Positions 2,573-29,199 of a stretch of 64,000 nt of DNA are shown in pieces. This DNA comes from Lacipirellula limnantheis (lineage in GTDB: Bacteria > Planctomycetota > Planctomycetia > Pirellulales > Lacipirellulaceae). A program made the position numbers and the translations under genes. Each line of letters starts with the position of its first letter. Within the stretch, counting starts at the first letter, position 1. The notes under the pieces are model-generated. The model was given only the letters and a program-made list of their open reading frames with translations. It was not told the DNA's origin and ran no database searches. The stretch is taken from NCBI RefSeq assembly GCF_007746075.1, contig NZ_CP036339.1:4741786-4805785 (forward strand). The letters are read 5' to 3'.

Positions 2573-2695
2573 CCGACCTCACGCCCTTAACGCTCATGGC
2601 ATCCGCCATTTACAGGAAGGTGCGGAGGGTAGCAATTGCTAGCAAGCGCGTCGACGGCGAAATCTGGGCGGGAAATTCGGCGGCGTGAAGCGCAG

Positions 2696-3499
2696 CTACG
2701 CCCCGAGAAACCACCTCACAATCCGGGGATTGAAGTCGTCGATGCACTCCCAGTGGAAGGCATGCCCCGCAGCCTCGTAGAGGTGCAGTTCACAGCCCGG
2801 AATGCGGGCGGCGATCTCTTGAGCCATCCAAGGGGGCGTGAAAATGTCGCTTTTCCCTCCGATGACCAGCGTGCGGCAGGCAACCCGCTGCAGATCTCCC
2901 CATACGTCGTGCGTAACGCAGGCATCGGCCTGAGCCTCTAACGCGTGAAGCGGCTGGGGAGCGGGCTCTTCGGCGGCGAGTCGTCGACCATCCATCAGGG
3001 TTTCGTAGCTGGCGTCGTTGTCCCAGTACGGCTTCGCGAAGATCAACAGCTGGAGGTAACGGACGAACTCGGCAGCGGTGAGCTTGGCCTTGGCCACGCG
3101 CAGATGTTCGAAGACGTCGCGGGCGTAGCGATCGCAACGTGCCCATGGACACATGAGGACGGCGCTCTCGACTCGCTGCGGGTGACGCAGCATGAGTTGC
3201 TGAGCGATCGCACTGCCCATCGAGCAGCCAATGACGCGCGCACGTTCAATACTCATGGCGTCCATCAGGCCTGCGTAGTCGTCCGCCATCATGGCCGAGG
3301 TGTACGGGCCTGACGGCATGTCGCTCTTTCCGACGCCCCGGTTGTCGGCCATGATGCAGCGAAAGTGACGTTTCCAGAGCTCCACGTGGTTCGCCCAAAC
3401 GCTGCCGGGACCGGTGATGCCCATGATACAGATGAGGGGCGGGCCGTCGCCTGCCTCTTCATAGTAGAGTTGGATGCCATTGGTTGCGACGTAGGGCAT
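2696..3499 (-). CDS. Alpha/beta hydrolase
   Basis: A 267-residue alpha/beta hydrolase fold protein, the usual size for the family. The nucleophile elbow is G-C-S-M-G with Ser93. The likely acid is Asp218 (GGKSDIFTP) and the likely base is His246 (YEAAGHAFHW). The oxyanion region MGITGPGSVW follows the first strands, and the DNRGVGKSD motif after strand 4 is typical of esterase and lactonase-like members. There is no signal peptide, so it should be cytoplasmic. It sits upstream of and co-directional with two TIM-barrel proteins. The substrate is unknown; 3-oxoadipate enol-lactonase-like or generic esterase activity are the closest guesses. No strong ribosome binding site is visible before the ATG. 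Confidence 0.9.
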   Translation of the reverse strand: MPYVATNGIQLYYEEAGDGPPLICIMGITGPGSVWANHVELWKRHFRCIMADNRGVGKSDMPSGPYTSAMMADDYAGLMDAMSIERARVIGCSMGSAIAQQLMLRHPQRVESAVLMCPWARCDRYARDVFEHLRVAKAKLTAAEFVRYLQLLIFAKPYWDNDASYETLMDGRRLAAEEPAPQPLHALEAQADACVTHDVWGDLQRVACRTLVIGGKSDIFTPPWMAQEIAARIPGCELHLYEAAGHAFHWECIDDFNPRIVRWFLGA

Positions 3500-3561
3500 A
3501 GCGTTGTTTCTCGATCGGGTTATCGCGCAGACATTGTTCGACGACCGGTTAGGAAGGGGTC

Positions 3562-4386
3562 TCAGGCGAGCGCTGGGATCAGGACTTCCTGAATCCAGCG
3601 ACCGTCGTGCAGGGTGACGCCATCGGGATCATCCACGGCGGCTTCGGCCTCGTCTTCGCAAATGATCCAGCCGGCGTAATTCCAAGACTTGAGCCAGCGA
3701 GTCACGCCGATCAAATCGACTTTGCCGGCGCCCATCAGAGCAAACTCAGGCGCCCCATCCCAGTCTTTGAAATGGACATGATTGATTAGCGATTGCCACT
3801 GCTGCATGGTCGCGAGCGGATCCATGCCGCCATTGATGATGTGGCCCACGTCGGGCGTCCAGCCGGTGACGGCGCGGTCAAGGCCGTTCAAGATAACTTC
3901 GTAGTCTTCGGCGGTGCGATTGATCGACGTCGGCGGCGAATTGGGATGGAACGAAGCATCGACGCCGCGTTCGGCTGCCCGCAGCGAGACCGCGTTGACG
4001 TTGCCGACCAGGTTTTGGCGCCGCTGTGCTAGGTCATCTCGGCTAGTCGGCGCCTGCACCGTGCAGAGCAAGGCGCCGGGGAATCGTTGCAGCAGGGCAA
4101 TAACGCGATCCGCTTCGATGCGCTCTTGCTCGGTCTCCAGCGGGTAGTTCCAGGGCAGGACCAAAGCAATCGCCGCGAGCTCGATGCCGTGCGATTGGAG
4201 AGACGCGGCCAGTCGAGTAGGGTCGCTCAGATCACCCATCCAGAAGTGGATCGGTTCAATTCCGGTCAGCCCGGCCTGAGCGGTGACGTCGATCATGTGA
4301 TCGAGTCGATTGGCATGAGTGGCGCCGCTGCCGCTCATGAACCAGGTGTAGCATTCATTGCCAAAACGGAAGGGCAAGGTAGTCAT
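3562..4386 (-). CDS. Sugar phosphate isomerase/epimerase-like TIM barrel
   Basis: A 274-residue protein of the xylose isomerase-like/AP endonuclease 2 TIM-barrel superfamily. Candidate metal ligands are spaced as expected: Glu44 (GIEPIHFW), His147 (SFHPNS), Asp179 and His182 (TPDVGH), His203/His205 (NHVHFKDWD) and Glu244 (WIICEDE). Proteins of this type epimerise or dehydrate sugars and inositols (IolE/IolI-like). No signal peptide is present. The gene lies between an alpha/beta hydrolase and a second TIM-barrel protein on the same strand, which suggests a small carbohydrate or polyol catabolic group. The exact substrate is not deducible. Confidence 0.88.
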   Translation of the reverse strand: MTTLPFRFGNECYTWFMSGSGATHANRLDHMIDVTAQAGLTGIEPIHFWMGDLSDPTRLAASLQSHGIELAAIALVLPWNYPLETEQERIEADRVIALLQRFPGALLCTVQAPTSRDDLAQRRQNLVGNVNAVSLRAAERGVDASFHPNSPPTSINRTAEDYEVILNGLDRAVTGWTPDVGHIINGGMDPLATMQQWQSLINHVHFKDWDGAPEFALMGAGKVDLIGVTRWLKSWNYAGWIICEDEAEAAVDDPDGVTLHDGRWIQEVLIPALA

Positions 4387-4461
4387 CGCTGGCAGGCCTG
4401 GCTCGCTGTAAGAGTGAAAAGAGAAATGAGCAGGATGGGCGTCGGCTCCGACTGCTTTCGC

Positions 4462-5505
4462 CTAGTCCGGTTTGGCGGTTCGCGATGCGTGATCGACGAC
4501 CTTGACGAGTAGTTGCAGAATACGATCCCACGTTTCCGCCGCCTCCAGCGTCTCGTTCGAGATCATGCAGCCGTCCCAACAGATATGTTTGATTGCCGGG
4601 CGAGGCACGCCATCGGAATCGAGCAGCCATAAGCTGGCGCACTTCACCACGTCGAGTTTGCCGCGCGGATCATCGGCGCGACAGTGTCGGCCCGTCTTAT
4701 CATGCGAGCCGCTGCCGAAGACGGTGCCATCGCTTTGCGCGATGTGGACATCGAGCGTCCACGGGCCGAGCGCCCGCGTCATCGTGCTGTAAGCAGTCCA
4801 GAACTCGTCGGCGTCGTAGCCATCGCTCAGCAGGCGATGTTCGGGAGCGTTGTAGCCCAGCAAATAGAGATAGGTATGCGCCAGATCGGCCTGAAAACCG
4901 ACCAACCCGGGTCGATCCACGGCTTCCAGCAATTCGGCCATGTGGCGCCACGAGTGCATGCCGGCCCAGCAGATTTCGCCCTCGGCCGCGAGGACCTCGC
5001 CGCAGCCGTCGGCAATTCGTCCCGCCTCGCGAAAGGTGTCCGCGATGCGCCGCGTGTGCTCGCGAGGGTTGGCCGCCCAGCGCGTCGGATTGTCGGCAGA
5101 GTCAATCCGGACGGCGCCGTATGGTCGCACGCCCCGCTCGCGCAGCCGGCTCGCAAAGCGGCAAGACTTTTCGACGGCCGCCAGGAAACGCTTGCGCTCG
5201 GACGCATCTCCCATTGCACTTCCGCCGCCAAGGTCGCTCCAGACAGGCGCCACGACCGACCCGCACACGAGTCCATGGGCCTGTAGCGTTTCGACAATGC
5301 GATTGAGCTCGTCGTCTCCTCGATCCATGTCGACGTGGGGCGCGTAGAGCGACAGATCGACGCCGTCGAACCTCACGTCGCCAGCCGTCGAGGCGCGCGT
5401 GAGATCGAGCATTCGCTCCAGCGAGATTGGGGATTGATCAGTCCCGGGGACCTTGCCAACTAGCCCCGGGCCCATGGCATTGTGGAGTTTCCAGTGGATC
5501 GCCAT
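4462..5505 (-). CDS. TIM-barrel xylose isomerase-like protein
   Basis: A 347-residue TIM-barrel protein of the sugar isomerase/epimerase superfamily. The frame opens with DGVDLSLYAPHVD-type strand motifs, then a Glu in AAEGEICWAGMHS, QADLAHTYL carrying an Asp and His, and LDVHIAQSDG, all likely metal ligands. The frame is open up to a TTG at 5538, but I chose the ATG at 5505 because the fold begins right after it (MAIHWKLHNAMG) and the extra residues are Ala/Ser-rich filler. It is co-directional with the TIM-barrel gene at 3562-4386, 75 bases away, so the two probably act on related substrates. The chemistry is unknown. Confidence 0.85.
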   Translation of the reverse strand: MAIHWKLHNAMGPGLVGKVPGTDQSPISLERMLDLTRASTAGDVRFDGVDLSLYAPHVDMDRGDDELNRIVETLQAHGLVCGSVVAPVWSDLGGGSAMGDASERKRFLAAVEKSCRFASRLRERGVRPYGAVRIDSADNPTRWAANPREHTRRIADTFREAGRIADGCGEVLAAEGEICWAGMHSWRHMAELLEAVDRPGLVGFQADLAHTYLYLLGYNAPEHRLLSDGYDADEFWTAYSTMTRALGPWTLDVHIAQSDGTVFGSGSHDKTGRHCRADDPRGKLDVVKCASLWLLDSDGVPRPAIKHICWDGCMISNETLEAAETWDRILQLLVKVVDHASRTAKPD

Positions 5506-5635
5506 CGAGTCTGCGGCAGCGGAGGCCGTCCCTGTCAACTTGGATGCGGAAAGTCAGGTAAGACGGTACTCGATCGTCGCTCCGATTGCCAGTAAAAGTT
5601 CGATCAGCGTGGTTGGGCTCGCAACGGGGGCCGGC

Positions 5636-6163
5636 TTATGCCGCCCCAAGCCCGAGCATCCGACGCCAGGCGCTCATCTGTCCCAGATGCATCATCACAT
5701 GTCCGCCGGCGTAAAACGCGTGCAAGGACCCCAACGTGGGAAAAAGCTCCGTCGACCGACCGCCGCTCGTATTCGGCCGGCGGAAGACCTCATCGTGAGT
5801 CGAGCGCAGCGTCGTGAGTGCGGTTTGGTACCCAGCGAAAAAGCGTTCGACGATTTCATCCTGCGGCGGGTAGATCGATCCCGACGGGTCGTCCTGGCAT
5901 TGGGAGTCCTTGGAGAAGACCTGAACAAATCCTGCAGATGGTTCGATCGCGGCCGCATCGCCCCCCAGTTGATTGACGACAATCGGTGCATAAATCGAGA
6001 GATGGCCCAAGATGAACGCACCGTGATTGGAACAGACGGCCACGCCGCCGGGCGTCGCCCAGCGAGCGAACTGCTGGGGTTTGACGTCGACTAAGAGTCG
6101 GCGGGCATTGTTGAGCGCCAATTGCAGCGAATCGGCGATCATCGTTCCAACGACATCAGACAC
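5636..6163 (-). CDS. DinB-like family protein
   Basis: A 175-residue four-helix-bundle protein of the DinB/YfiT type, which usually binds a divalent metal through three His residues. Candidate ligands are His47 and His54 (NHGAFILGHLSIY) and the His pair in the C-terminal HVMMHLGQM motif, a hallmark of the family. I chose the GTG at 6163 because an AAGGAG Shine-Dalgarno lies six bases before it. The longer frame to 6358 lacks such a site and its N-terminal part looks non-coding. Family members are thiol transferases or stress-induced proteins of unclear function. It is on the same strand as the TIM-barrel genes, 130 bases away. Confidence 0.82.
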   Translation of the reverse strand: MSDVVGTMIADSLQLALNNARRLLVDVKPQQFARWATPGGVAVCSNHGAFILGHLSIYAPIVVNQLGGDAAAIEPSAGFVQVFSKDSQCQDDPSGSIYPPQDEIVERFFAGYQTALTTLRSTHDEVFRRPNTSGGRSTELFPTLGSLHAFYAGGHVMMHLGQMSAWRRMLGLGAA

Positions 6164-6612
6164 GTCAGACTCCTTGCGAACGGGTGGAATGAAAGCGATC
6201 TGGCGTGAGTGATCCTGGTGAACTCCACGGCCAACATGGGAAGCAGTAGAGTGAACGACGCCGTGAATGGGAAGCATCGGGCAGCATGGCTCGTCGTTGC
6301 ACGGGAGATCTCTCGCCCAAGCCACTGAATTCCCCCGATACCCGGTGGGTACTCGCATAATCGCGCGGCAGGACAGATCGCCGCCCGACCAGGCTCCGAG
6401 CGGTGCTCGACGGGATTCGGGCAGCGGGCTCGCCGAGATCCAGCGCAGATCGTCTAGCTAGCAGTCCAAGCGCCAGCTGACTTTTCGGTACGGGCAATCT
6501 GGTTTGACTGCACAAAGTTTAATGATCCCCGGTCCCCGCTCTCGATAATGTTGATGGCGATTCGCTTCGCCTGTAGTGAGCGTTCGCCCATACCACTTTT
6601 CAATTCCGCCGA
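6164..6612. other. Intergenic region without a recognised gene
   Basis: No convincing coding sequence is visible between the divergent DinB-like and BBP7 genes. Short frames here lack ribosome binding sites and family motifs. The promoters of both flanking genes must lie here, but I see no clear consensus. Confidence 0.6.
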
Positions 6613-7932
6613 ATGTCGCTTCGACTTCTTGCTGCCGTCTTGTTCGTCTCCCTCGCCACGATGGCGGTGATGCCGAAAAGCTGCGCCCAATCGAGCGATC
6701 GACCGATTGGCGGCGAGAGTTCAGCTAGCGAACCCTCGTCCGAGGCGCCGCCCTCGGCAACGATTGCGCCAAGACCGACCGCCAGTTTGCTTGAATATTA
6801 CAACAAGCAGCAGAGCGAATCGCTAGTCGACGCGCCCGACTGCGCCGCTGCCTGCGAACTACCTTCCTCTGGAGCTAAGTTCTGGGTTAGCGCCGAGTAT
6901 CTGCTGTGGGGCAGCGAAGGGATGTATGTTCCCGCCCTGGTGACAACCAGCCCGACAGGAACTCCTTCAGGCATTGCCGGAGTGATCGACGCGGAGGATG
7001 CCGACACGACCATTCTGAAGGGCGAATCTCACTTCAACGACGATGTTCGATCGGGCGGACGCTTCGCACTCGGAGCTTGGCTTGATCCCGCGCAGCAAGA
7101 CAGCGTTGCTCTCACGTACTTCTTCATCGGGCAGGGATCGGCAGGTTACCACGTGAATCCTGCCGACAACGCGATCATCGCTCGTCCCTTTTTTAACGTT
7201 TCCAGCGGCGAACAAGATGCCCGTTTAGTCGCCTACCCGAACTTGGTTGAAGGAACGGTCGACATCATCGCTCAGAGCAGCTTCCAAGCGGCGTCTTTCG
7301 AGTATCGTCGACAAGCGGACCGCTCCGGCCGATTTAAGGTCAATTGGCTGTTCGGGTATATGTTCGCGCAACTAGACGAGAACGTCACCATCCGCGACTC
7401 GACGGTTTCGCTCTCCGGCGTCACGCAAGGGACGGCAATTGATCTTTACGACGCCTTCGACTCGAACAACTCCTTCCATGGCGCCTCGCTCGGACTCTCG
7501 GCGCATGAGGAATTTGGCGAACTTTGGACCGGGGACGTCATTGCGAAGGGATCGCTCGGCGGCGTCGCCAGCCGAACGAAGATCTCGGGCCAAACGGCCA
7601 CGACGCTCAACGGCGTCACCACGACGAATGCCGGCGGCCTGCTCACCCAAACCTCGAATCTAGGCACGCACCGTGACGGCTACGTCAGTTCGGCGTGGGA
7701 GCTAGGACTCAAGCTGCGCCGCCGACTCACGACCAACACCTCGCTAACGCTCGGCTACAGCTGGTTTCTCCTGAGCCACGTGGAGCGCGCCGGCGAACAA
7801 ATTGACCAGGGCGTCAATGTGACGCAGATCCCCCCCGGCAACCTCGTGGGGGCCGCACGACCGGCCTTTCCGGGAGAGAAATCGAGCTTCTGGACGCAGG
7901 GACTCAACTTCGGCCTGGAAGCTCGCTTTTAG
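6613..7932 (+). CDS. BBP7 family outer-membrane beta-barrel protein
   Basis: A 439-residue protein with a signal peptide (about residues 1-26, ending near SCAQS) and a Pro/Ser-rich linker. The planctomycete BBP7 domain then begins at KFWVSAEYLLWG (about residue 92). It continues with the family's Gly-rich strand pattern GGRFALGAWLD and YFFIGQG, and ends in LNFGLEARF, a typical barrel-closing strand with a C-terminal Phe. Alternating hydrophobic strands fill the rest. The location is inferred to be the outer membrane and the function is unknown. Its stop codon overlaps the stop of the convergent giant gene by four bases. The ATG at 6613 has no evident Shine-Dalgarno. Confidence 0.88.
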   Translation: MSLRLLAAVLFVSLATMAVMPKSCAQSSDRPIGGESSASEPSSEAPPSATIAPRPTASLLEYYNKQQSESLVDAPDCAAACELPSSGAKFWVSAEYLLWGSEGMYVPALVTTSPTGTPSGIAGVIDAEDADTTILKGESHFNDDVRSGGRFALGAWLDPAQQDSVALTYFFIGQGSAGYHVNPADNAIIARPFFNVSSGEQDARLVAYPNLVEGTVDIIAQSSFQAASFEYRRQADRSGRFKVNWLFGYMFAQLDENVTIRDSTVSLSGVTQGTAIDLYDAFDSNNSFHGASLGLSAHEEFGELWTGDVIAKGSLGGVASRTKISGQTATTLNGVTTTNAGGLLTQTSNLGTHRDGYVSSAWELGLKLRRRLTTNTSLTLGYSWFLLSHVERAGEQIDQGVNVTQIPPGNLVGAARPAFPGEKSSFWTQGLNFGLEARF

Positions 7933-10900
7933 GCCGCAAGCGAACCATCGAGCATGGCGAAGGCTTCGTCGAGCGCGTCAATTTCATCCCCGGCCGTTTG
8001 GCTGTGCTCATCACTCGGGCGATCGGATGGTTCCTGTTCAGTGCGCAACAGGACGGTCTGAGGATCGGATGCGTCTCCGCGTCTGACCTCATCGCTCGGC
8101 GGAACACTAGCGGTGAGCGATGCCTCGACGTCTGCCTCCTCCTCAGCGACTAGCGAGGCGAAGGCGAGGGCAGCCAGCGCGGGGCCATCGTTGACCGACG
8201 CCGAATTCGTCGCAGCTTCCTCTTCGGCCAACAACGAGGCGACTGCAGCCGCCGCGGCACTGCTTGAGCTTGGCGTGAAGGTCGTCGCGCCGCTGCGAAT
8301 CGCTGCGGCAAGTTCAGCGTGGCCAGCGTTGCTCTCGCCTTGGGCGATCACTTCGCGGAAGTAAGAGTTGCTCGCCTGGCTTGACGCGAAGAACCAGCGA
8401 ATCGACGTGTAAGTCGGCTTGAGCAAGCGCTCGCCGAAATTGTTGTTCGCCGCTGTTTCGGCGCTTGACAACACAATGTTGGCGATGACGTCGTTGGTGA
8501 TCGTGGCGCTCGCGTCTGAGCTCGTCTCGAGGCCGTCATTCATCGCCTGCGGCTGCGATTCGGCGACCTTGTACGTTCCGGCGGGCAACGCCGTGAACGA
8601 GTAGGCGCCGCTGCTATTGGTGATCGCTGTTCGGGTAATGTTGGTCCCCGTGCTGGTGCTCGTCAACGTGATCAGGACGCCCGGGATGCCAACTTCGCCC
8701 GTGTCGCGGACGCCATCGTTATCGGCGTCGAAGTAGACGATGCCCGAGACGACTCCCGTGGTCGTCGCCGCGGTCACGGTCATGGTCACCGTGGCGGTTT
8801 TGGTCAGGTTGTCAGTGTCCTTAATGGTATAAGTGAAGGTTTCCGTACCGGTAAAGTTAGCCGCTGGCTTATAGAGGATCTTCGAACCGTCGGAACTAAT
8901 GGTGACGACGCCGCTTTGAGATCCTTGCGTTACTGCCGAAATGGTCAGCGTCTGCGTGCCGTCGGGAGCGCTGGAGTCGTTCGTTAACACGTCGACCTCC
9001 TGCGTGGCGCCGTCGTTCACTACGCTCTTCGTATCGTTGGCCGCCGTCGGAGCGTCGGCGACGCCGTTGACCGTGATGGTCACGGTGATTGGCTGCGACT
9101 GGCCCGCGGCGTCTTTCGCTCGGTAGGTAAAGGTATCGGCGCCGAAGTAATTGGCCGTCGGCGTGTAGGTGAACGAACCGTTGGCGTTCAGCGTTAGCGT
9201 ACCATGGGTAGGAGTCGTCACGACTTCGGCCGTGCGGGCGTCGCCCTCGACGTCGGTATCGTTCGATAGCACGCCTTCGGCCACATTTACCGTCAGCGTT
9301 GCATCTTCATTCACGGTATACGAATCGGCGACGGCCACTGGCGGGTCGTTCACCGCATTGACGGTAAGCGTCACGGTGATCGGCTGAGAGGTCGTGGTTC
9401 CGTCCTTCACGCGGTAAGTAAACGAGTCGCTGCCGTTGTAGTCGCCGGTCGGCGTGTAGACAAACGACCCGTCCGAATTCAGCTCAATCGTCCCGTGCAC
9501 GGGGCCGGCAGCGAGTTCCGCGACAAGTGCATCGCCGTCGGGATCGGAGTCGTTCGACAACACGCCTTGCGCCGCGTTAATCGTCAGGACCGTATCTTCG
9601 TTGGTGGAGTAAGAATTGGCGGCGCCGACCGGCGGATCATTCACTCCGCTCACGTTGATCGTTACCGTGGCGGCGTTGCCAGTGAGCGTGTTGTCGGTGG
9701 CCGTGTAAGTAAAACTGTCGACGCCGAAAAAGTTTGCCGCTGGCGTATAGGTGAATGATCCGTCGGGATTGAGCGTCAGCACGCCGTGGCTTGGCGGCGA
9801 GACAACCGAAGCGAAGAGCGTCTCGCCTTGGCCGTCGTTGTTCAGAACTCCGTTCGCGGCCGAGATCGTCAAGATGCCGTCCTCGGTCACCGCATAGGCG
9901 TCCGGCAAGATGGCAATATCGCCAGTGACGGTGACGACAATGGTTTGGCTCACAGAGTTGCCCGCCGTGTCGGCGAGCGTGACCGCAAACTGATGAGTCA
10001 TCGCCTGCGCCGCGGTCGGCGTCCAAGCGATGGCTCCAGTTGTCGGGTCGATTGTCATTCCGGTCGGAGCATTGACGAGCGAATAGGTTGTGTCAGCCGC
10101 GCCTTCCGACGGACTCACGGGGTCATAGGCGAAGGATGCGCCAACGTCCACTCTGCTGCCTGGCGTCGAGCTAATCGGCGCGGGCGCAGTTGCGTCAATC
10201 GACACGGCGAGCGCAGGGCTGTCAGCGCTCTCCTGACCGCTGAGCGTCTGCCGGGCGTAGATGTTGTGAAGGCCGTCCGTGAGCGCCGCGGCGCCGTTGG
10301 TGGTAATCGTCACTGTGGGGCCAGTGGCGACCGCCGACCCGATTAAGGTATCACCCGAGTAAAGGCGTACCTGCCCTCCAGGAGCCACGCCGGAGACGGT
10401 GAACTGGAGTTGCTTTCCAGCGCCGTTGTTCAAATTCGTGAGATTGTCAGTGCTCAAGGAACCCGTGTCGCTGACCGCAACGAGGTCAACGCCTGTCGGC
10501 TTTAGCACGATCGACTCGGCGAAGTTGCGGTTGTCGAGTTCGACGCCGATTTCGACGGTCACCGTGTGGGCAGCGCCCGCCGCCGGCAACGTTTGCGTTC
10601 CTTGCGCACTGGCGACCATGCGAATCGTGTACGTCCCAGGCACGAGTTGCAGTCGATACTTGCCGTCGTTGTCGGTGAGCGTGGAGATTTCAGTCGAATC
10701 AAAGGCGCCGTTGTTATTGGCGTCAACGTAAATCGTCGCGCCGGCGAGCCCTTCCTCGCCCGAGTCCTGGACGCCGTTAGAATTCCGGTCGACGAAGCGC
10801 ACGCCAGCGACGTCGCCGACGCCCTGGATGGAGGAGACGACGGCGAGTTGATTGGCGGTGCTCAGCGGCAGCTCGTCGTACGGCTGGGCATTCGTTTTGT

Positions 10901-22573: not shown

Positions 22574-23512
22574 ATGAACTCGCCCTATCTGCCTGCCGCC
22601 CCGCTCGTGACAGGCGCGCTCTTGGCGACTTTCGCGGTTTTTCTCCTGGCCCCCGCCGTTCCCGCTGAGGAACCTTCCGTGGAAATTCGCTACGAATACG
22701 GTCCCGATTCCATCCGCCAGGAGAGCGTGCCGCAGGGTACGATCACCGAGCATGTCTGGAGCGACAGCAAAATTTACCCGGGGACGCTGCGGCGCTATTG
22801 GATTTACGTCCCCGCGCAGTACGAGCCCTCGAAAGCGGCGGCACTTATGGTGTTTCAAGACGGCCATGCGTATGTCCGCGAGCGCGGGGAATTCCGCACG
22901 CCGATCGTTCTTGACAATCTGATCCACGAAGGAGCGATGCCGGTGACGATCGGCGTGTTTGTCGATCCAGGCACGACGCAGCCCGAGCTCCCGCCGAAGC
23001 CAGGGTGGGAACCCAAGCCGGAAAACCGCAGCGTCGAGTACGACACATTGAGCCCTGACTACGCAAACTTTTTGCTGACGGAAATCCTGCCCGCGGTGCA
23101 GAAAGATTACAACATCACCGACGATCCCGAGGGCCACGCCATCGCGGGGATCAGTAGCGGCGGCATCGCGGCGTTCACGACGGCGTGGGAACGACCCGAT
23201 GCCTTTCGCAAGGTGCTCAGCCATGTGGGCAGCTTCACGAACATTCGCGGCGGCGATCGCTACCCAGGCATGATTCGCAAAGGGCACGACAAACGGCCAA
23301 TGCGCATCTTCCTGCAAGATGGAAGGCACGACCTCGATAACGCCCACGGCAATTGGTGGCTCGGCAATTTGCAGATGGACGCCGCGCTGAAGTTTGCCGG
23401 CTACGACTACAAGTTCGTGGCGGGTGAAGGCGCCCACAACGGAAATCACGGCGGAGCCATTTTACCCGACTCGCTCCGCTGGCTGTGGCGTGACTACAAG
23501 CTTCCGCAATGA
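22574..23512 (+). CDS. Secreted esterase of the Fes/esterase D-like family
   Basis: A 312-residue protein with a signal peptide (about residues 1-31, ending AVPAEE) and an esterase domain of the alpha/beta hydrolase fold. Key features are YWIYVPAQYEP at the first strand, LMVFQDGHAYV, the nucleophile motif GISSGG with Ser194, and His288 in GEGAHNGNHG. The likely acid is Asp249 or Asp253 (LQDGRHDLD). Relatives include enterochelin esterases and putative acetyl xylan or feruloyl esterases; planctomycetes carry many. It should be periplasmic or secreted and act on ester-linked carbohydrates or siderophores, but the substrate cannot be told. It is convergent with the rhodanese gene. Confidence 0.9.
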   Translation: MNSPYLPAAPLVTGALLATFAVFLLAPAVPAEEPSVEIRYEYGPDSIRQESVPQGTITEHVWSDSKIYPGTLRRYWIYVPAQYEPSKAAALMVFQDGHAYVRERGEFRTPIVLDNLIHEGAMPVTIGVFVDPGTTQPELPPKPGWEPKPENRSVEYDTLSPDYANFLLTEILPAVQKDYNITDDPEGHAIAGISSGGIAAFTTAWERPDAFRKVLSHVGSFTNIRGGDRYPGMIRKGHDKRPMRIFLQDGRHDLDNAHGNWWLGNLQMDAALKFAGYDYKFVAGEGAHNGNHGGAILPDSLRWLWRDYKLPQ

Positions 23513-23575
23513 CCGGTCAGTTGCGTTCGACCTCTCCGCGACGAGGCGCGGCCGCCAGTCGCGTGGCTGCGTTAG

Positions 23576-23935
23576 CTATTCGACCCCGAATCCTGCTTCC
23601 TTCCACGCTTTGAATCCGCCGATCAAGGACGAAACATTCGCATAGCCCATGCGTCCGAGGCTCTCCGCGGCAAGCGCCGATCGCTTGCCGCCGCCGCAAT
23701 ACAGAACAATTGGCTGGTTCGCGTCGGGCGCCTCCGCCTCAATCTTCATTTCTAGCACGCCTCGCGACAGGTGCTTGGCCCCGACCGCATGCTCTTTTGC
23801 GAACTCGTCTCCCTCGCGGACGTCAATTAGTAGCCCGCCGTTTTCGTAGATCTCGCCGGCCTCCGCCGCAGAAACATCGCGCACTTTTTCCTGCGCTTCG
23901 GCTGCCAACCGCTCAAAACGGGGCCCATGTGCCAT
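23576..23935 (-). CDS. Single-domain rhodanese
   Basis: A 119-residue cytoplasmic rhodanese-like protein. The domain has LLIDVREGDEF, the active-site loop CGGGKRS with Cys80 as persulfide carrier, and the closing LIGGFKAWKEAGF. I chose the ATG at 23935 because AAGGAG lies six bases upstream; a longer frame to 24001 adds residues without family similarity. It should transfer sulfane sulfur or act as an accessory sulfur carrier. It is divergent from the sigma-factor gene cluster. Confidence 0.92.
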   Translation of the reverse strand: MAHGPRFERLAAEAQEKVRDVSAAEAGEIYENGGLLIDVREGDEFAKEHAVGAKHLSRGVLEMKIEAEAPDANQPIVLYCGGGKRSALAAESLGRMGYANVSSLIGGFKAWKEAGFGVE

Positions 23936-24143
23936 GGCATTCTCCTTTCCAAGGATTTGGTTGAGGTCAAAAGGGCAGAGGGAGCTGCCGATCGCGTCCA
24001 TTGTTCCGCTCTACGCCAATTTCGTTGCAACATTCGGACCGATTCGGCCGTTCCCAACGCTCTTAGGGCCAGTTTTTCGCTCTGTCGCCAAGAATTTCCT
24101 GAACCGTTCCTCCTCCGCGCGCAACTATTCTATCGATTCAGCC

Positions 24144-24149
24144 GGAGGA
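24144..24149 (+). promoter_or_regulatory. Shine-Dalgarno GGAGGA before the sigma-factor gene
   Basis: This strong ribosome binding site lies upstream of the earliest annotated start (GTG at 24196) by 46 bases, but seven bases before the in-frame codon ATC at 24157. It suggests that translation starts near 24157 at a non-standard codon. Confidence 0.5.
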
Positions 24150-24195
24150 CAATTCAATCGCACGCACCAGCCAGCAAATCCGCGACGAACTCCTC

Positions 24196-24714
24196 GTGTT
24201 GCGCTGCCGTCGACGCGACTTGGCCGCTTGGGATGAGTTAGTCGCCGCCTGGAATGACCGGCTATTTTATTTTCTCCGTCAACTGATCGACCACGAACAT
24301 GACGCAGCGAACGTCCTGCAGGAAGTCTGGTTGGCGGCGTTCCGTAATATTGGCGGCCTGAGACATGATACGCACTTTGCCCCTTGGATCTATATCATCG
24401 CCCGCCGCGCGGCGATGAAATACTACCGCGGCCGATTCGCCCGCGACGAGACGACGTCTACTGAGGTCGCGCTGCATGAACCGGGCAGCGACGTTGACGT
24501 GCAGCGAGATTTTGACAATGCAGAGCTCGTTCACTACGGGCTCGGTCGCCTCCCGCTGGCGGAGCGAGAGCTCCTGACGCTCCACTTCTTGGACGACCTG
24601 TCGATCGCCGAAATCGCAACCGTGCTCGAAATTCCCGGCGGCACGGTGAAGTCAAGGCTCTGGAAAGCCCGCCAGAGCCTCCGCCGTATTCTCGATGAGG
24701 AGGCCACGCCATGA
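24196..24714 (+). CDS. ECF-type RNA polymerase sigma factor
   Basis: At least 172 residues with sigma region 2 (DELVAAWNDRLFYFLRQLIDHEHDAANVLQEVWLAAF; WIYIIARRAAMKYYR) and region 4 (LPLAERELLTLHFLDDLSIAEIATVLEIPGGTVKSRLWKARQSL), so it is a typical ECF-class factor. The GTG at 24196 is the first standard start. The frame continues upstream with residues ARTSQQIRDELL, which resemble the N-termini of other planctomycete ECF factors, so the real start is probably about 24157. The stop overlaps the start of the next gene (ATGA), as is common for sigma/anti-sigma pairs. It leads the cluster encoding the channel and VWA proteins and may drive its own operon. Confidence 0.9.
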   Translation: MLRCRRRDLAAWDELVAAWNDRLFYFLRQLIDHEHDAANVLQEVWLAAFRNIGGLRHDTHFAPWIYIIARRAAMKYYRGRFARDETTSTEVALHEPGSDVDVQRDFDNAELVHYGLGRLPLAERELLTLHFLDDLSIAEIATVLEIPGGTVKSRLWKARQSLRRILDEEATP

Positions 24715-25265
24715 ACGGAGATCCACTTGGCGACCGTTTGCTGGCTGTCGCACCGCTCTCCCAAAATTCTCGCCAGCAACTCGAACAGGATCTATCTAAC
24801 ATGTTTAAGCGCGAACTTACAAGGACGCGACGTTCATTCTTTGGCGTCGTCGCCGCTATCGCCCTCGTTAGCAGCGGCGTCTGTGCGGCCCTCGCCTTGA
24901 CGGAGCCCGATCTGCCGGCGCTGCCGCGCACAGCGCTGGCCGTTGGATCGATGTTCGGCTTGGCTTGGGCCGTCGTGGCTGCGCAAATTTGCTGGCGCGG
25001 CGCACTCGACGTTAAACAAGACGGTCGGCGGATCGCCGCGATGGTCTGGTGCTTCACGGTGCTAATGATGACGTTCTTCCTCGCCGCCGGCATGGGCGCC
25101 GAAGACCGTCTTCAAGGACTGATGCTGATCGCGGGCGGTCTGCCTTTCCTCATCGGGGCCGGGGTTTACTGGCTAAACTACCGTATCGAGCAAGCGGAGC
25201 TTAGCGCGCAGGAGCAGTTCCTGCAGCTTGAGCTCCTGCTCGCCAAGCTGAGCGAGCAGAAGTAG
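24711..25265 (+). CDS. Four-helix membrane protein overlapping the sigma factor, possible anti-sigma factor
   Basis: A 184-residue protein whose ATG overlaps the sigma-factor stop by four bases. The first 41 residues are hydrophilic and probably cytoplasmic (DLSNMFKRELTRTRRS). Four hydrophobic segments follow at about 42-62, 73-93, 107-127 and 134-152. The C-terminus is an amphipathic Glu/Gln/Leu-rich helix (about 155-184) that looks like a coiled coil. No classic anti-sigma domain (ZAS zinc motif) is present. The translational coupling argues for a function tied to the sigma factor, such as membrane sequestration. This is inference; I recognise no named family. Confidence 0.85.
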   Translation: MNGDPLGDRLLAVAPLSQNSRQQLEQDLSNMFKRELTRTRRSFFGVVAAIALVSSGVCAALALTEPDLPALPRTALAVGSMFGLAWAVVAAQICWRGALDVKQDGRRIAAMVWCFTVLMMTFFLAAGMGAEDRLQGLMLIAGGLPFLIGAGVYWLNYRIEQAELSAQEQFLQLELLLAKLSEQK

Positions 25266-25272
25266 CGGGGCG

Positions 25273-26616
25273 ATGCGGCCCTCGAATTCTCTCGGCGCCG
25301 GCGGCATCGGCAGAGTTCCCCACGATTGCCTTCAACCGCGTCCAGCGAAGCTGCCAGAGCTGCCAACGAGCGCACTCTCGCGGCGAAGGCGCGTCTTTTG
25401 TGCCTTTTTAGCTACCCGAAGGCGAAGGGCGGTTGTTATTTTATTAATAGCAACCTTCGGCGTCGCCGTCGGGGCCGGACGCGGTCGAGGCGTCGACCTT
25501 GCTGCCACTTGGGCCTTGGGAACATCGCCTGTGATCGAGAACCTGTTTAATAGCGTGCGGAATCTTTCCGATCACTGGGCCGTCGTCATCGGCATCAGCG
25601 TCGTCTTCTTCGTCGTCCAGACGATCCTGAGCATGAAGGTCTACGCCCAGGCGTGGGACCAGAATCGCCTCCTCCGCCAGCTTCGTCGCGAGTTCGACGA
25701 GGGGGAAACCGGCCGGCCGCTGCCTGAGGATGCGATTGACGATTTCGATTGGTTGGAGTGGGTGCTGACGGCCTTCCCTGCCAGTGGGGAGCAGCGCCGG
25801 CCGGCTCACTTCAATCGCGACACCGCGCTGCACGAACTCGACACGCGAATTGCCAGTGACTGGTCGTACCTATTGCTCCAACGGATGGGCGTGATGGCGC
25901 CGCTGCTGGGCGTCGTGCTGACCGTCATCGGTTTCTACTGGCTCAAGGTCGACGACGCCGGCGAGCAGTCATTGCAGACGATTTTGGTTTCCGTCACCCC
26001 GTTGATCAGCGGCGTTGGCGCCGGCGCCGTGCTTGCGCTACTCAATCAGTTCTTATTGCAAATCGTGGGAGGGCGGTTGGAGCGCCTGCGAATGTCGGCT
26101 CGCACTTGGTTCGACGCCGTCATTTGGCCGAGCGTCAACGTCGAATCGCCTGACCGGGCGGCGAACACGATCAGTTCGATCGAGACGTTCGCTAGCCTCT
26201 TGGTCGGAGCGGCGCAGCGACATGCCGAAAGCTCCGAGCAGATTAAGGCTTCCGCTGCTTCGCTGAAACTCGCGACGAGCCAGTTTGATCAAGTCGTCGG
26301 CGCGATCCAGGACGAGCTGAAAGACCTTCCGGGGGCGCTCGCGGTGATCCGTGACGCCACGGCGGCTTCTGCTCAGTCTTTGCTGGAGCTCGTTCCCACC
26401 GGAACCCGCGCTGTCGCCAATCTAGACGTCTCGGTAGCGGCCTTCCGGACCACGATCGACCAGCAATTTGCGGAGGCGGCCAAGATTCACCTAGAAGCAA
26501 GCAAATCACTCGACGTCGCCGTAGAGCAGATGCGCCGACTGTTAGAGCAAAGCGCCTCGCCCAACGGCGCCGTTGACGAACTCGATCAGTCATGGATCGC
26601 CGATCGCCCGCGCTAA
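25273..26616 (+). CDS. MotA/TolQ/ExbB-like proton-channel protein with long helical tail
   Basis: The frame encodes 447 residues. Hydrophobic helices lie at about 54-68, 102-120, 205-225 and 236-265. The third contains MAPLLGVVLTVIGFYWL and the fourth LVSVTPLISGVGAGAVLALLNQ, which fit the conserved pore helices of MotA/TolQ/ExbB. A cytoplasmic region lies between helices 2 and 3. Residues 285-430 form a long, methyl-accepting-protein-like helical tail with Ala, Ser, Glu and Gln. It is followed 32 bases later by its likely MotB/ExbD-like partner. Start is uncertain: the first 50 residues are Arg/Pro-rich and a 10-bp hairpin lies at 25431-25455, so a downstream start is possible. Confidence 0.82.
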   Translation: MRPSNSLGAGGIGRVPHDCLQPRPAKLPELPTSALSRRRRVFCAFLATRRRRAVVILLIATFGVAVGAGRGRGVDLAATWALGTSPVIENLFNSVRNLSDHWAVVIGISVVFFVVQTILSMKVYAQAWDQNRLLRQLRREFDEGETGRPLPEDAIDDFDWLEWVLTAFPASGEQRRPAHFNRDTALHELDTRIASDWSYLLLQRMGVMAPLLGVVLTVIGFYWLKVDDAGEQSLQTILVSVTPLISGVGAGAVLALLNQFLLQIVGGRLERLRMSARTWFDAVIWPSVNVESPDRAANTISSIETFASLLVGAAQRHAESSEQIKASAASLKLATSQFDQVVGAIQDELKDLPGALAVIRDATAASAQSLLELVPTGTRAVANLDVSVAAFRTTIDQQFAEAAKIHLEASKSLDVAVEQMRRLLEQSASPNGAVDELDQSWIADRPR

Positions 26617-26648
26617 TCAAGCGCTAAGCGGGCCTGGAACGTATCAAT

Positions 26649-28067
26649 ATGCACCTCGAACGAGTCACCTCCCGCTCCAGTGAAGCCGGCGTGGCCGGTT
26701 GGATCGCCAGCAACGACGTCACCTTGTTCACCATGGTCCTCGTCATGGTGATCGCCATTTTCTTGCACTCTCGCGTAAACAAGGGACTCTCGGAACAAGC
26801 GCAACTGGCTGACCAGAATGCGACAATCGTCGCAACCCTCACGTCGACCGCTGCCGAGCTAGACGACGCCCGCGATCTGCTCGCGCAGACGAACGAGCGG
26901 CTCACGTTGACGCAGGCGGAGCGCGATCAGTTGCAGCAACAACTGCTCGACAAGCTGACCGCGATGACGGAGATCAACGCCAAGCTCGAGGCGATCTTAG
27001 CCGACAAAGGCGAACTCACACGACAGCGAGAAACGCTGCTCTCGGAGAAAGAGGCGCTTTCCCGTGAAAAGGCGATGCTTGAGGGGGACCGCGATCAAAC
27101 GGCCGCGACGAACGTGACGCTCCACAGTCGGCTCGATGAGCTTTCGAGTCAACTCGCGGCCAAAGTTGCCGCGTTGGAGGCGATCGAGTCCCAGCGCGAC
27201 GAGCTGACCAAGCAGGCGGCCGAGCTCAAGACGTTGGTCACTTCGCTGAAGCAACGGCTGGAGCAGATGAATGTCGAACTCCGCACTGCTAAGAACGAAG
27301 CTGAGGCTGCGAAGGCCACGGCCGACGCCGATGCTCAGCAACTGCAAGCGAAACTCGCTGCGGGCGATCGCCAAGCCGAAGCCTACCTCGCCGACCTGCG
27401 TCGCGCCACTGAAATGCTGGAGAGTCTGAAGCTTGAGAAACAGCAGTTGCAAAGCGAACTCACCGCCGCCGAACGCCAGCGGCAGGCCGACCTCCTGGCG
27501 GAGGCAGAGAACAACCGCGAACTCGTCGGGCTAAAAGGTTCGCTGCGCCGGGTGGCGATCATCTTCGACGCTTCTGGCAGCATGCGGCAGACTGGAGGGG
27601 GTGGGGCAGATCGATGGACCGAGGCCCGCGAGATCGCCGCCACGTGGCTGAAGCACCTGAACGTGCACGAGTGCGTGCTGATCGTGTACTCCACCGACGT
27701 TCGTACGTTTCCTGCCGACGGCTCGCTCACCGACCTCCGGGGCACCGAAGGCGCGGCCAAGCGTGATCAACTCTTGCGAGAACTCGAAGCGATTCAACCA
27801 GGCGGCTGGACCGACACCCTTGCCGCATTCCAAAAGGCGTATGAGTACGACGTCGACACAATTTTGCTTCTCTCCGACGGCGCCCCGAGCAAACTTGCTT
27901 CAGGGGCCTACCAGGATGCCCTCGCACAGCAGATTTACCAGCTCTGCCGACAACACGCGGAAGTTCCGGTCAACACCATCGGCCTCGGGAATTACTTCGA
28001 CCAAGAAATGTCGGCGTTCCTGCGCACCGTGGCGAACATCACGGGAGGCGAATTTCGCGGCGAGTGA
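26649..28067 (+). CDS. Membrane-anchored coiled-coil VWA protein, stator-like partner
   Basis: A 472-residue protein with three parts. Residues 18-42 form one transmembrane helix (SNDVTLFTMVLVMVIAIFLH) with Asp23 at its start, the position of the proton-binding Asp in MotB and ExbD. Residues about 45-290 are a continuous coiled coil rich in Glu, Leu, Ala and Gln. Residues 297-472 are a von Willebrand A domain with a complete metal site: Asp307-x-Ser309-x-Ser311, Thr388 and Asp410. With the N-terminus inside, the coiled coil and VWA domain face the periplasm. There is no OmpA-like peptidoglycan-binding domain. It probably pairs with the MotA/TolQ-like protein just upstream. Confidence 0.88.
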   Translation: MHLERVTSRSSEAGVAGWIASNDVTLFTMVLVMVIAIFLHSRVNKGLSEQAQLADQNATIVATLTSTAAELDDARDLLAQTNERLTLTQAERDQLQQQLLDKLTAMTEINAKLEAILADKGELTRQRETLLSEKEALSREKAMLEGDRDQTAATNVTLHSRLDELSSQLAAKVAALEAIESQRDELTKQAAELKTLVTSLKQRLEQMNVELRTAKNEAEAAKATADADAQQLQAKLAAGDRQAEAYLADLRRATEMLESLKLEKQQLQSELTAAERQRQADLLAEAENNRELVGLKGSLRRVAIIFDASGSMRQTGGGGADRWTEAREIAATWLKHLNVHECVLIVYSTDVRTFPADGSLTDLRGTEGAAKRDQLLRELEAIQPGGWTDTLAAFQKAYEYDVDTILLLSDGAPSKLASGAYQDALAQQIYQLCRQHAEVPVNTIGLGNYFDQEMSAFLRTVANITGGEFRGE

Positions 28068-28167
28068 CGCCGAAGTGGGGCTACGGCAATCTGACGCCTA
28101 ACATCAACGAGCGGCTTATCCATTGTCTAACCTCTAATCCTTGAGCACCTGATCGCCTGGGACCACG

Positions 28168-29199
28168 ATGAACTCGCGTCTGTTGATTTGCTTTCTGTCG
28201 ATTGCCGCCGTCGCGGCAACGGCTCAATATGTCCACTCGGCCGAGCCCACCCGCGTAACGGTCGACAACTTCAGTCGCGCCGAGTCGGACCTTTATTTCA
28301 CCCGTTTTGCCAAGGAGGGTGGCTTTGGCAAGTTTCAGCATGAACGGGAGGTGGCCGACATCGGCCATCAAACCGTGGTGCGACTCAATCGTGATACGCT
28401 ATATTCGTTTGGCGTATTCGACCTGAATGCCGGGCCGGTCACGGTGACGTTGCCGGAAGTCGGCAAGCGATACATGGCGCTGCAGGTGATCAACGAGGAT
28501 CACTACGCCCCCAACGTCTTCTACGCGCCAGGCGCGTTTACAATCACGAAGGAGACAGCAGGCACGCCATATGTGGCGCTCGCTGTGCGGACCTTCGTCG
28601 ATCCGAACAATCCGGCCGACGTGGAGGAAGTGCACCAAGTGCAGGATGCGATCAAGGTTGAGCAAAAGTCGGCGGGCGAGTTTAAGGTCGGCGAATGGGA
28701 CGCCGTGTCGCAAGACAAGGTGCGAAGTGCTCTGATCAATCTAGCGGCGGCGAACGGCGGGCTCGACTCGCGGCGGATGTTCGGTCGGAAGGATCAAGTC
28801 GATCCGGTTCAGCACCTTATCGGCACTGCCGCCGGCTGGGGAGGCAATCCGGCCACGGCGGCGATATATGTCGGCGTCGTGCCGGAGAAGAATGACGGGA
28901 GAACCGTATACCGACTGACAGTGAAAGACGTACCCGTCGACGGATTTTGGTCAATCAGCGTTTACAACGCCGAAGGCTACTTCGCGAAGAATTCGCAAAA
29001 CGCGTATACGCTGAACAATATTACGGCGAAGCCGAGCGCGGACGGGTCATATCAGATTCAATTCGGCGGATGCGATGGTAAGTTCCCGAACTGCCTGCCG
29101 ATCATGCCAGGATGGAACTACACGGTGCGCCTCTATCGGCCGCGGGCCGAAATCCTTGACGGGAAGTGGGCCTTTCCGGCGGCCAAACCGGTCGACTAG
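28168..29199 (+). CDS. DUF1254/DUF1214 domain secreted protein
   Basis: A 343-residue protein with a signal peptide (MNSRLLICFLSIAAVAATAQYVHSA). The first part matches the DUF1254 pattern (ESDLYFTRFAKEGGFGKF; VRLNRDTLYSFGVFDL; YMALQVINEDHYAP) and the second the DUF1214 pattern (VPVDGFWSISVYNAEGYF; PNCLPIMPGWNYTVRLYRPRAEILDG). Such proteins are periplasmic and widespread in bacteria; no biochemical activity is firmly known to me. It starts 100 bases after the VWA gene, so its membership in that operon is doubtful. Confidence 0.93.
   Translation: MNSRLLICFLSIAAVAATAQYVHSAEPTRVTVDNFSRAESDLYFTRFAKEGGFGKFQHEREVADIGHQTVVRLNRDTLYSFGVFDLNAGPVTVTLPEVGKRYMALQVINEDHYAPNVFYAPGAFTITKETAGTPYVALAVRTFVDPNNPADVEEVHQVQDAIKVEQKSAGEFKVGEWDAVSQDKVRSALINLAAANGGLDSRRMFGRKDQVDPVQHLIGTAAGWGGNPATAAIYVGVVPEKNDGRTVYRLTVKDVPVDGFWSISVYNAEGYFAKNSQNAYTLNNITAKPSADGSYQIQFGGCDGKFPNCLPIMPGWNYTVRLYRPRAEILDGKWAFPAAKPVD

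Follow-up and report, generated by a model that had tools for sequence, protein, structure and literature searches.

Motors of the proton-driven 5:2 type lie behind swimming and gliding, the uptake of nutrients, the maintenance of the outer membrane and defence against phages. In MotB, ExbD and TolR, the helix that carries the conserved aspartate runs N-in, C-out, and the Asp lies near its N-terminal end. A review of 5:2 motors includes GldL/GldM, whose output is a periplasmic shaft, the 18-nm GldM (PMC9389320). More recently, a family of membrane-tethered vWA proteins was described that adjoin tolQ-like genes in the absence of tolR or exbD (PMC12204202; Mol Biol Evol 2025 msaf138). Members occur mainly in Proteobacteria and Verrucomicrobia, predominantly with two different vWA genes, and a conserved Asp in the helix of the vWA protein was predicted by AlphaFold3 to lie inside the pentamer, with rotation proposed (PMC12204202).

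Here, we compare these systems with a locus in a 64,000-nucleotide stretch of a two-contig planctomycete genome (the window, G000:C1:4741786-4805785), where a TolQ/ExbB-like channel gene (gene 3, subunit A) is followed by a gene for a membrane-anchored VWA protein (gene 4, subunit B), and describe the anatomy, distribution and proposed mechanism of the pair.

Gene boundaries at the window locus

All four open reading frames of the locus are present and co-directional on the plus strand. Gene 1 (24157-24714) encodes an ECF-type sigma factor (Pfam Sigma70_r4_2, 2.8e-12; Sigma70_r2, 5.7e-9), and gene 2 (24711-25265), which overlaps it by 4 bases, encodes a four-helix membrane protein that has no significant Pfam match and is possibly a membrane anti-sigma factor. 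Gene 3 spans 25531-26616 and gene 4 spans 26649-28067.

The original prediction placed the sigma start at 24157, where the codon is ATC. The first standard start, GTG 24196, is not conserved in G003, a member of the same genus. In the sigma frame of three orthologues, no ATG, GTG or TTG occurs between the upstream stop and the ATC, and a GGAGGA-type Shine-Dalgarno sequence lies directly before the ATC in all three; both the ATC and the Shine-Dalgarno sequence are kept in G003 and G004. Because no standard start lies between the upstream stop and the ATC and the Shine-Dalgarno sequence is conserved, ATC 24157 is the probable start, and a rare start codon conserved on a sigma factor could serve expression control.

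The start first assigned to gene 3, ATG 25273, fared less well. Similarity to congeners begins at 25514-25527, and one congener starts at a matching GTG, so that translation probably begins at GTG 25531, giving a protein of 361 amino acids instead of 447. The gap between genes 2 and 3 is therefore about 265 bp rather than 7, and the initial picture of four co-directional genes with overlaps or short gaps stands for the reading frames, the strand and the 4-base overlap of genes 1 and 2, but not for this interval. The leader of the A/B pair (25266-25530, plus strand) shows weak similarity to the G004 and G003 leaders (2/500, 12/500 and 0/500 shuffles reach the pairwise scores), which is suggestive of a possible promoter element of its own around 25415-25455. 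A consensus scan of 23500-28300 found no sigma-70-type promoter and terminator-like matches near chance.

The same genome holds other stator-like genes. A flagellar-type MotA and MotB lie about 5 kb ahead of the window start (L077, G000:C1 4730000-4742000, at 4479-6590), and a second stator-like cluster (L076, G000:C1 4975000-4992000, at 2578-9580) contains two MotA/ExbB-type proteins, each about 500 residues long, together with two partners (762 and 349 residues) in which a hydrophobic segment includes an Asp.

Anatomy and conservation of the A/B pair

An AlphaFold2 model of A (mean pLDDT 64, most of the core 70-89) has three long helices placed as in ExbB, followed by a helical tail. The first 41 rows of a Foldseek search with this model are all TolQ, ExbB or ZorA chains, at modest E-values (0.005). 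Structural alignment with VIA-align gave Z scores of 11.8 for TolQ (8vlw; rmsd 4.4, 201 residues), 11.6 for ExbB, 10.5 for ZorA and 7.5 for MotA; with helical bundles, a Z score under about 13 is not always specific, but no unrelated fold appeared near the top for A. The model thus indicates that A folds like TolQ, ExbB and ZorA, crossing the membrane three times and carrying a long tail in the cytoplasm, and the MotA/TolQ/ExbB-like pore-helix pattern and helical tail first read from the gene 3 sequence are borne out by the predicted structure.

In profile comparison, A APLLGVVLTVIGF aligns to E. coli ExbB APFVGLFGTVWGI (in sequence: SPFVGLFGTVWGI), placing APLLGVVLT131 of A on APFVGLFGT148 of ExbB and T131 at the T148 position. 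The register is exact and the two probabilities are low (22%, 35%), a weak profile match to ExbB/TolQ (22-35%). Position 131 is Thr in the A relatives, or Ser in G358, and we found no clear conserved equivalent in A of the second pore Thr (ExbB T181). A Pfam scan of gene 3 returned no channel match, and a search of its own genome with PF01618 (MotA_ExbB) at E 10 reached seven other places and not A. Pfam, NCBIfam and PADLOC scans of A gave weak matches only, probably through helical composition, and its sequence profile found only chance matches to poly(A)-binding protein among PDB chains; both were set aside. The tail is the variable part of the subunit: A proteins range from 361 to 757 residues, and the window A lacks about 150 tail residues that the G004 protein has.

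Subunit B begins with the segment E-A-G-x-A-G-W-I-x-x-N-D23 followed by a single membrane helix (26649-26775, plus strand), with D23 at the start of that helix. Just nine positions are the same in all 15 B proteins, G17, W18, I19 and D23 being four of them, and D23 is kept even in the G440 and G358 proteins, whose C-terminal part is not VWA by Pfam. In the model, B forms a helix over residues 16-207, a second over 222-292 and a VWA Rossmann fold. The Pfam match to VWA_2 lies just above the cut-off (6.8e-6), and the best solved-structure matches of B are VWA domains. Profile searches of B against the PDB returned coiled-coil matches only, and the VWA domain alone gave nothing significant against the PDB by sequence. 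The MIDAS residues (DxSxS ... T ... D) are D307, S309, S311, T388/T390 and D410 and are conserved in all complete VWA-bearing members, indicating that the domain carries an intact candidate metal site. No OmpA-like Pfam match, the peptidoglycan-binding domain of the ZorB type, was found in B, which ends in the VWA domain.

Between helix and head runs a continuous coiled coil of about 250 residues, with a hydrophobic period of 3.51 that none of 1000 shuffles matched in strength. In 10 of 11 close orthologues, membrane helix and VWA domain lie 241, 248, 255 or 262 residues apart, lengths that all agree modulo 7. In these ten the stalk thus changes by whole heptads only, as expected of a rigid shaft. 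At the coiled-coil rise of 0.1485 nm per residue, 255 residues extend about 38 nm. We expect the stalk to be a stiff parallel dimer, which would suit an axle of two B chains. The reading of gene 4 as a single helix opening on Asp23, a long coiled coil and a VWA domain with all MIDAS residues is therefore confirmed.

A and B are adjacent at all 15 A-bearing planctomycete loci, on the same strand at 14 and head-to-head in G358, and a VWA-bearing B adjoins A at 13 of them; the joint conservation of the MotA-like and VWA genes in planctomycetes, expected from the outset, thus holds. Eleven pairs are close (the window genome, G003, G004, G005, L046, L047, L048, L049, L050, L051 and L074 of G472) and four are distant (G049, G496, G440 and G358). 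Among 59 relatives, gene 3 was found in four genomes of the genus including its own (G000, G003, G004, G005) and weakly in G049. Gene 4 occurs in 6/6 genomes of the genus; in G001 and G002 it sits at a contig end, and an upstream partner is therefore out of view. All close loci have one vWA gene per A, and no ExbD/TolR-like gene or reading frame was found beside the pair loci. The pair is patchy: of the 396 genomes in the order, 9 carry it. When 84,980 species, represented by one genome each, were scanned with short peptide patterns, a method that can miss distant members, eight loci were recovered, all labelled Planctomycetota or a lineage within it, and no relative of A was found on plasmids or viral contigs. 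We excluded two weaker matches from the phylum: the one in G163 resembles an ordinary TolQ/R-like pair whose partner is short, and no interpretable gene was obtained from the contig of G222.

The distant pairs have varied surroundings. In G440 (L053, 1164-11974), the pair belongs to an operon-like series of genes that also encodes an Hsp70-VWA fusion, another Hsp70, a GrpE-like protein and a protein of 807 residues; the B subunit there retains the Asp helix and the coiled coil and lacks a VWA domain. After the G049 pair (L032, 709-10856) come four unknown genes, one of them for a small GTPase-like protein (4506-5270), and a restriction-type helicase gene lies nearby on the other strand, an arrangement reminiscent of GTPase-centred conflict clusters. 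In G496 (L075, 214-6940), a co-directional run comprises an ECF sigma factor (214-1020), a radical-SAM activase, a coiled-coil protein, a small protein, A and B.

The location of the pair differs in each of G000, G003, G004 and G005, yet it diverges like its neighbours. Protein identities between the window and G004 are 77% for A and 78% for B, against 74% for the sigma factor, 82% for the four-helix protein and 78% for DUF1254, and in the same comparison A has an NG86 dN/dS of about 0.11 and B one of about 0.09. These comparisons fit vertical descent with relocation; identities of 77-78% for the pair, beside 74-82% for the sigma, four-helix and DUF1254 proteins, do not favour its horizontal transfer among members of the genus.

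A candidate envelope motor and its alternatives

The conserved pairing, the fold of A, the invariant Asp, the VWA domain with its MIDAS residues and the heptad-phased stalk are all consistent with the reading that we favour, in which A and B probably constitute a TolQ/ExbB-type proton-driven 5:2 motor with B as the axle. Five A subunits would ring two parallel B helices, and protons would pass through Asp23 of B and the Thr131 ring of A, moving B, perhaps by rotation, relative to A; this proton route and movement are proposed by analogy with MotAB, ExbBD and ZorAB. The continuous coiled coil would carry the motion some 38 nm to a pair of VWA domains, which may bind a ligand through the MIDAS metal ion on the far side of the periplasm, while the helical tail of A would lie in the cytoplasm and might serve as an anchor or a sensor there. 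For a family that looks related, the 2025 study came to this reading too, with AlphaFold3 (PMC12204202). Counting against a motor are the lack of a MotA_ExbB match in A, its weak ExbB/TolQ profile match, the modest Foldseek E-values and the want of a clear second pore Thr, as well as the positive-inside rule, which does not favour a periplasmic stalk. The periplasmic orientation of B is the weakest step, as the charges flanking the helix do not settle it.

If B were inverted, with stalk and VWA domain in the cytoplasm, the pair would act as a sensor or a scaffold and not as a motor of the envelope. Basic residues stand just past the membrane helix in several orthologues, where the residues after the helix are more basic than those before it, and the G440 relative lies among genes for cytosolic Hsp70, Hsp70-VWA and GrpE proteins. 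However, the flanks of the window B helix are neutral (two basic and two acidic residues before, one basic and two acidic after), and the Asp of B sits near the N-terminal end of its helix as in MotB, ExbD and TolR, where that helix runs N-in, C-out; we regard inversion as improbable. Similar doubt attaches to the pair being an anti-phage or conflict system like Zorya, in which a TolQ-like channel bears a long cytoplasmic tail and links sensing to an effector. A matches ZorA nearly as well as TolQ (Z 10.5 versus 11.8), long A tails weakly match ZorA tail profiles, likely via helical composition, and the distant G049 relative stands beside a GTPase cluster and a restriction-type helicase gene. 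Yet no ZorC/D/E-like gene or other effector was seen at the close loci (by Pfam for the neighbours of the window pair and open reading frame lists for the close loci), B lacks a peptidoglycan-binding domain, no relative was found in the viral contigs and plasmids searched, B is present in all six genomes of the genus, and the pair diverges like its vertical neighbours. A defence role is thus quite unlikely.

The original prediction tied all four genes into one system, in which the state of the motor would pass through the four-helix protein to the ECF sigma factor and on to transcription. The shared strand and short spacing within the window speak for such a link, as does the different ECF sigma factor that heads the G496 cluster ending in A and B. 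Elsewhere, the association dissolves. In G003 and G004, the gene 2 homologues lie far from A/B and beside their own sigma gene, and in G004 the genes for HIT, Trm112, esterase, sigma, four-helix and DUF1254 proteins follow one another as in the window, with A/B missing between them, and match the window on both sides of the pair (to 25243 and from 28238). When the four proteins were searched by tblastn against 22 loci, sigma and four-helix matches appeared at the G003 and G004 sigma loci only, with an additional weak match to the different, unrelated sigma factor in G496, the one sigma gene near the pair at any other locus. Since the G004 sigma locus lacks A/B and its A/B pair lies on another contig, the inference from sigma factor to motor is unsupported, and the true gap of about 265 bp before A also stands against it. 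We consider a sigma-linked system highly unlikely. By synteny, the four genes fall into two unrelated units, with the sigma and four-helix genes forming a separate bicistron and the sigma-factor gene a chance neighbour of the putative motor genes rather than a part of the motor.

Returning to the proposed motor, we tentatively suggest a broader and rather doubtful generalization: a class of proton-driven motors with exchangeable heads on a torsionally rigid, heptad-phased shaft. The TolQ-like ring and the GWIxxxD helix would be fixed and the head would be mostly VWA, otherwise another domain; the importance of the head's rotary angle would explain why the phase between motor and head is conserved, and the planctomycete members would act on a ligand in the outer envelope or outside the cell. 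For a torsionally rigid shaft, the whole-heptad rule predicts that a 7-residue insertion would be tolerated and one of 3 or 4 residues would not.

Comparison with known motors

The original prediction knew of no described system with this gene order. For the four-gene order this holds, but a 2025 paper had already paired a TolQ-like protein with an Asp-helix vWA protein, so that the concept is known (PMC12204202). Judged by their published description, the TPH-vWA/TolQ-like pairs (Idiomarina-type) resemble A/B in gene adjacency, in the absence of a TolR/ExbD gene and in the helix Asp. They mostly have two vWA genes, whereas the planctomycete loci have one per A and a stalk of about 38 nm; the heterologous vWA gene pairing, described as predominant, is absent from A/B, which marks a variant and not an exclusion from the family. 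New here are the planctomycete branch, its single vWA gene per TolQ gene, the stalk of that length, the variable A tails and the distant relatives with a swapped head. The pair makes the anatomy of a sparsely documented family of vWA motors clear: there is one vWA gene, and the invariant Asp offers a target for mutation.

TolQ/TolR and ExbB/ExbD provide the best structural match of A and share the three-helix topology, the Thr after the AP motif and the Asp in the partner helix; where TolR or ExbD has a small domain, B carries some 250 residues of coiled coil and a VWA domain, and no TolA/TonB gene was seen beside the pair. ZorA/ZorB of Zorya have in common with it the TolQ-like fold (VIA Z 10.5), a long cytoplasmic helical tail and a membrane partner next door, but B is without the peptidoglycan-binding ZorB domain, no ZorC/D/E-like genes were seen among the Pfam-scanned neighbours of the window pair or in the reading-frame lists of the close loci, and the pair was not detected in plasmid or viral records. 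GldL/GldM is a 5:2 motor with a long periplasmic shaft as its output, features that A/B would share if their proposed arrangement is right; no type IX secretion genes were noticed at the pair loci. The GldM shaft is built of four globular domains, whereas that of B is a coiled coil ending in a VWA domain. The pair adds a planctomycete branch whose axle itself looks like a stiff rod, about 38 nm long and with an adhesion-type domain at its end, roughly twice the length of the 18-nm GldM shaft.
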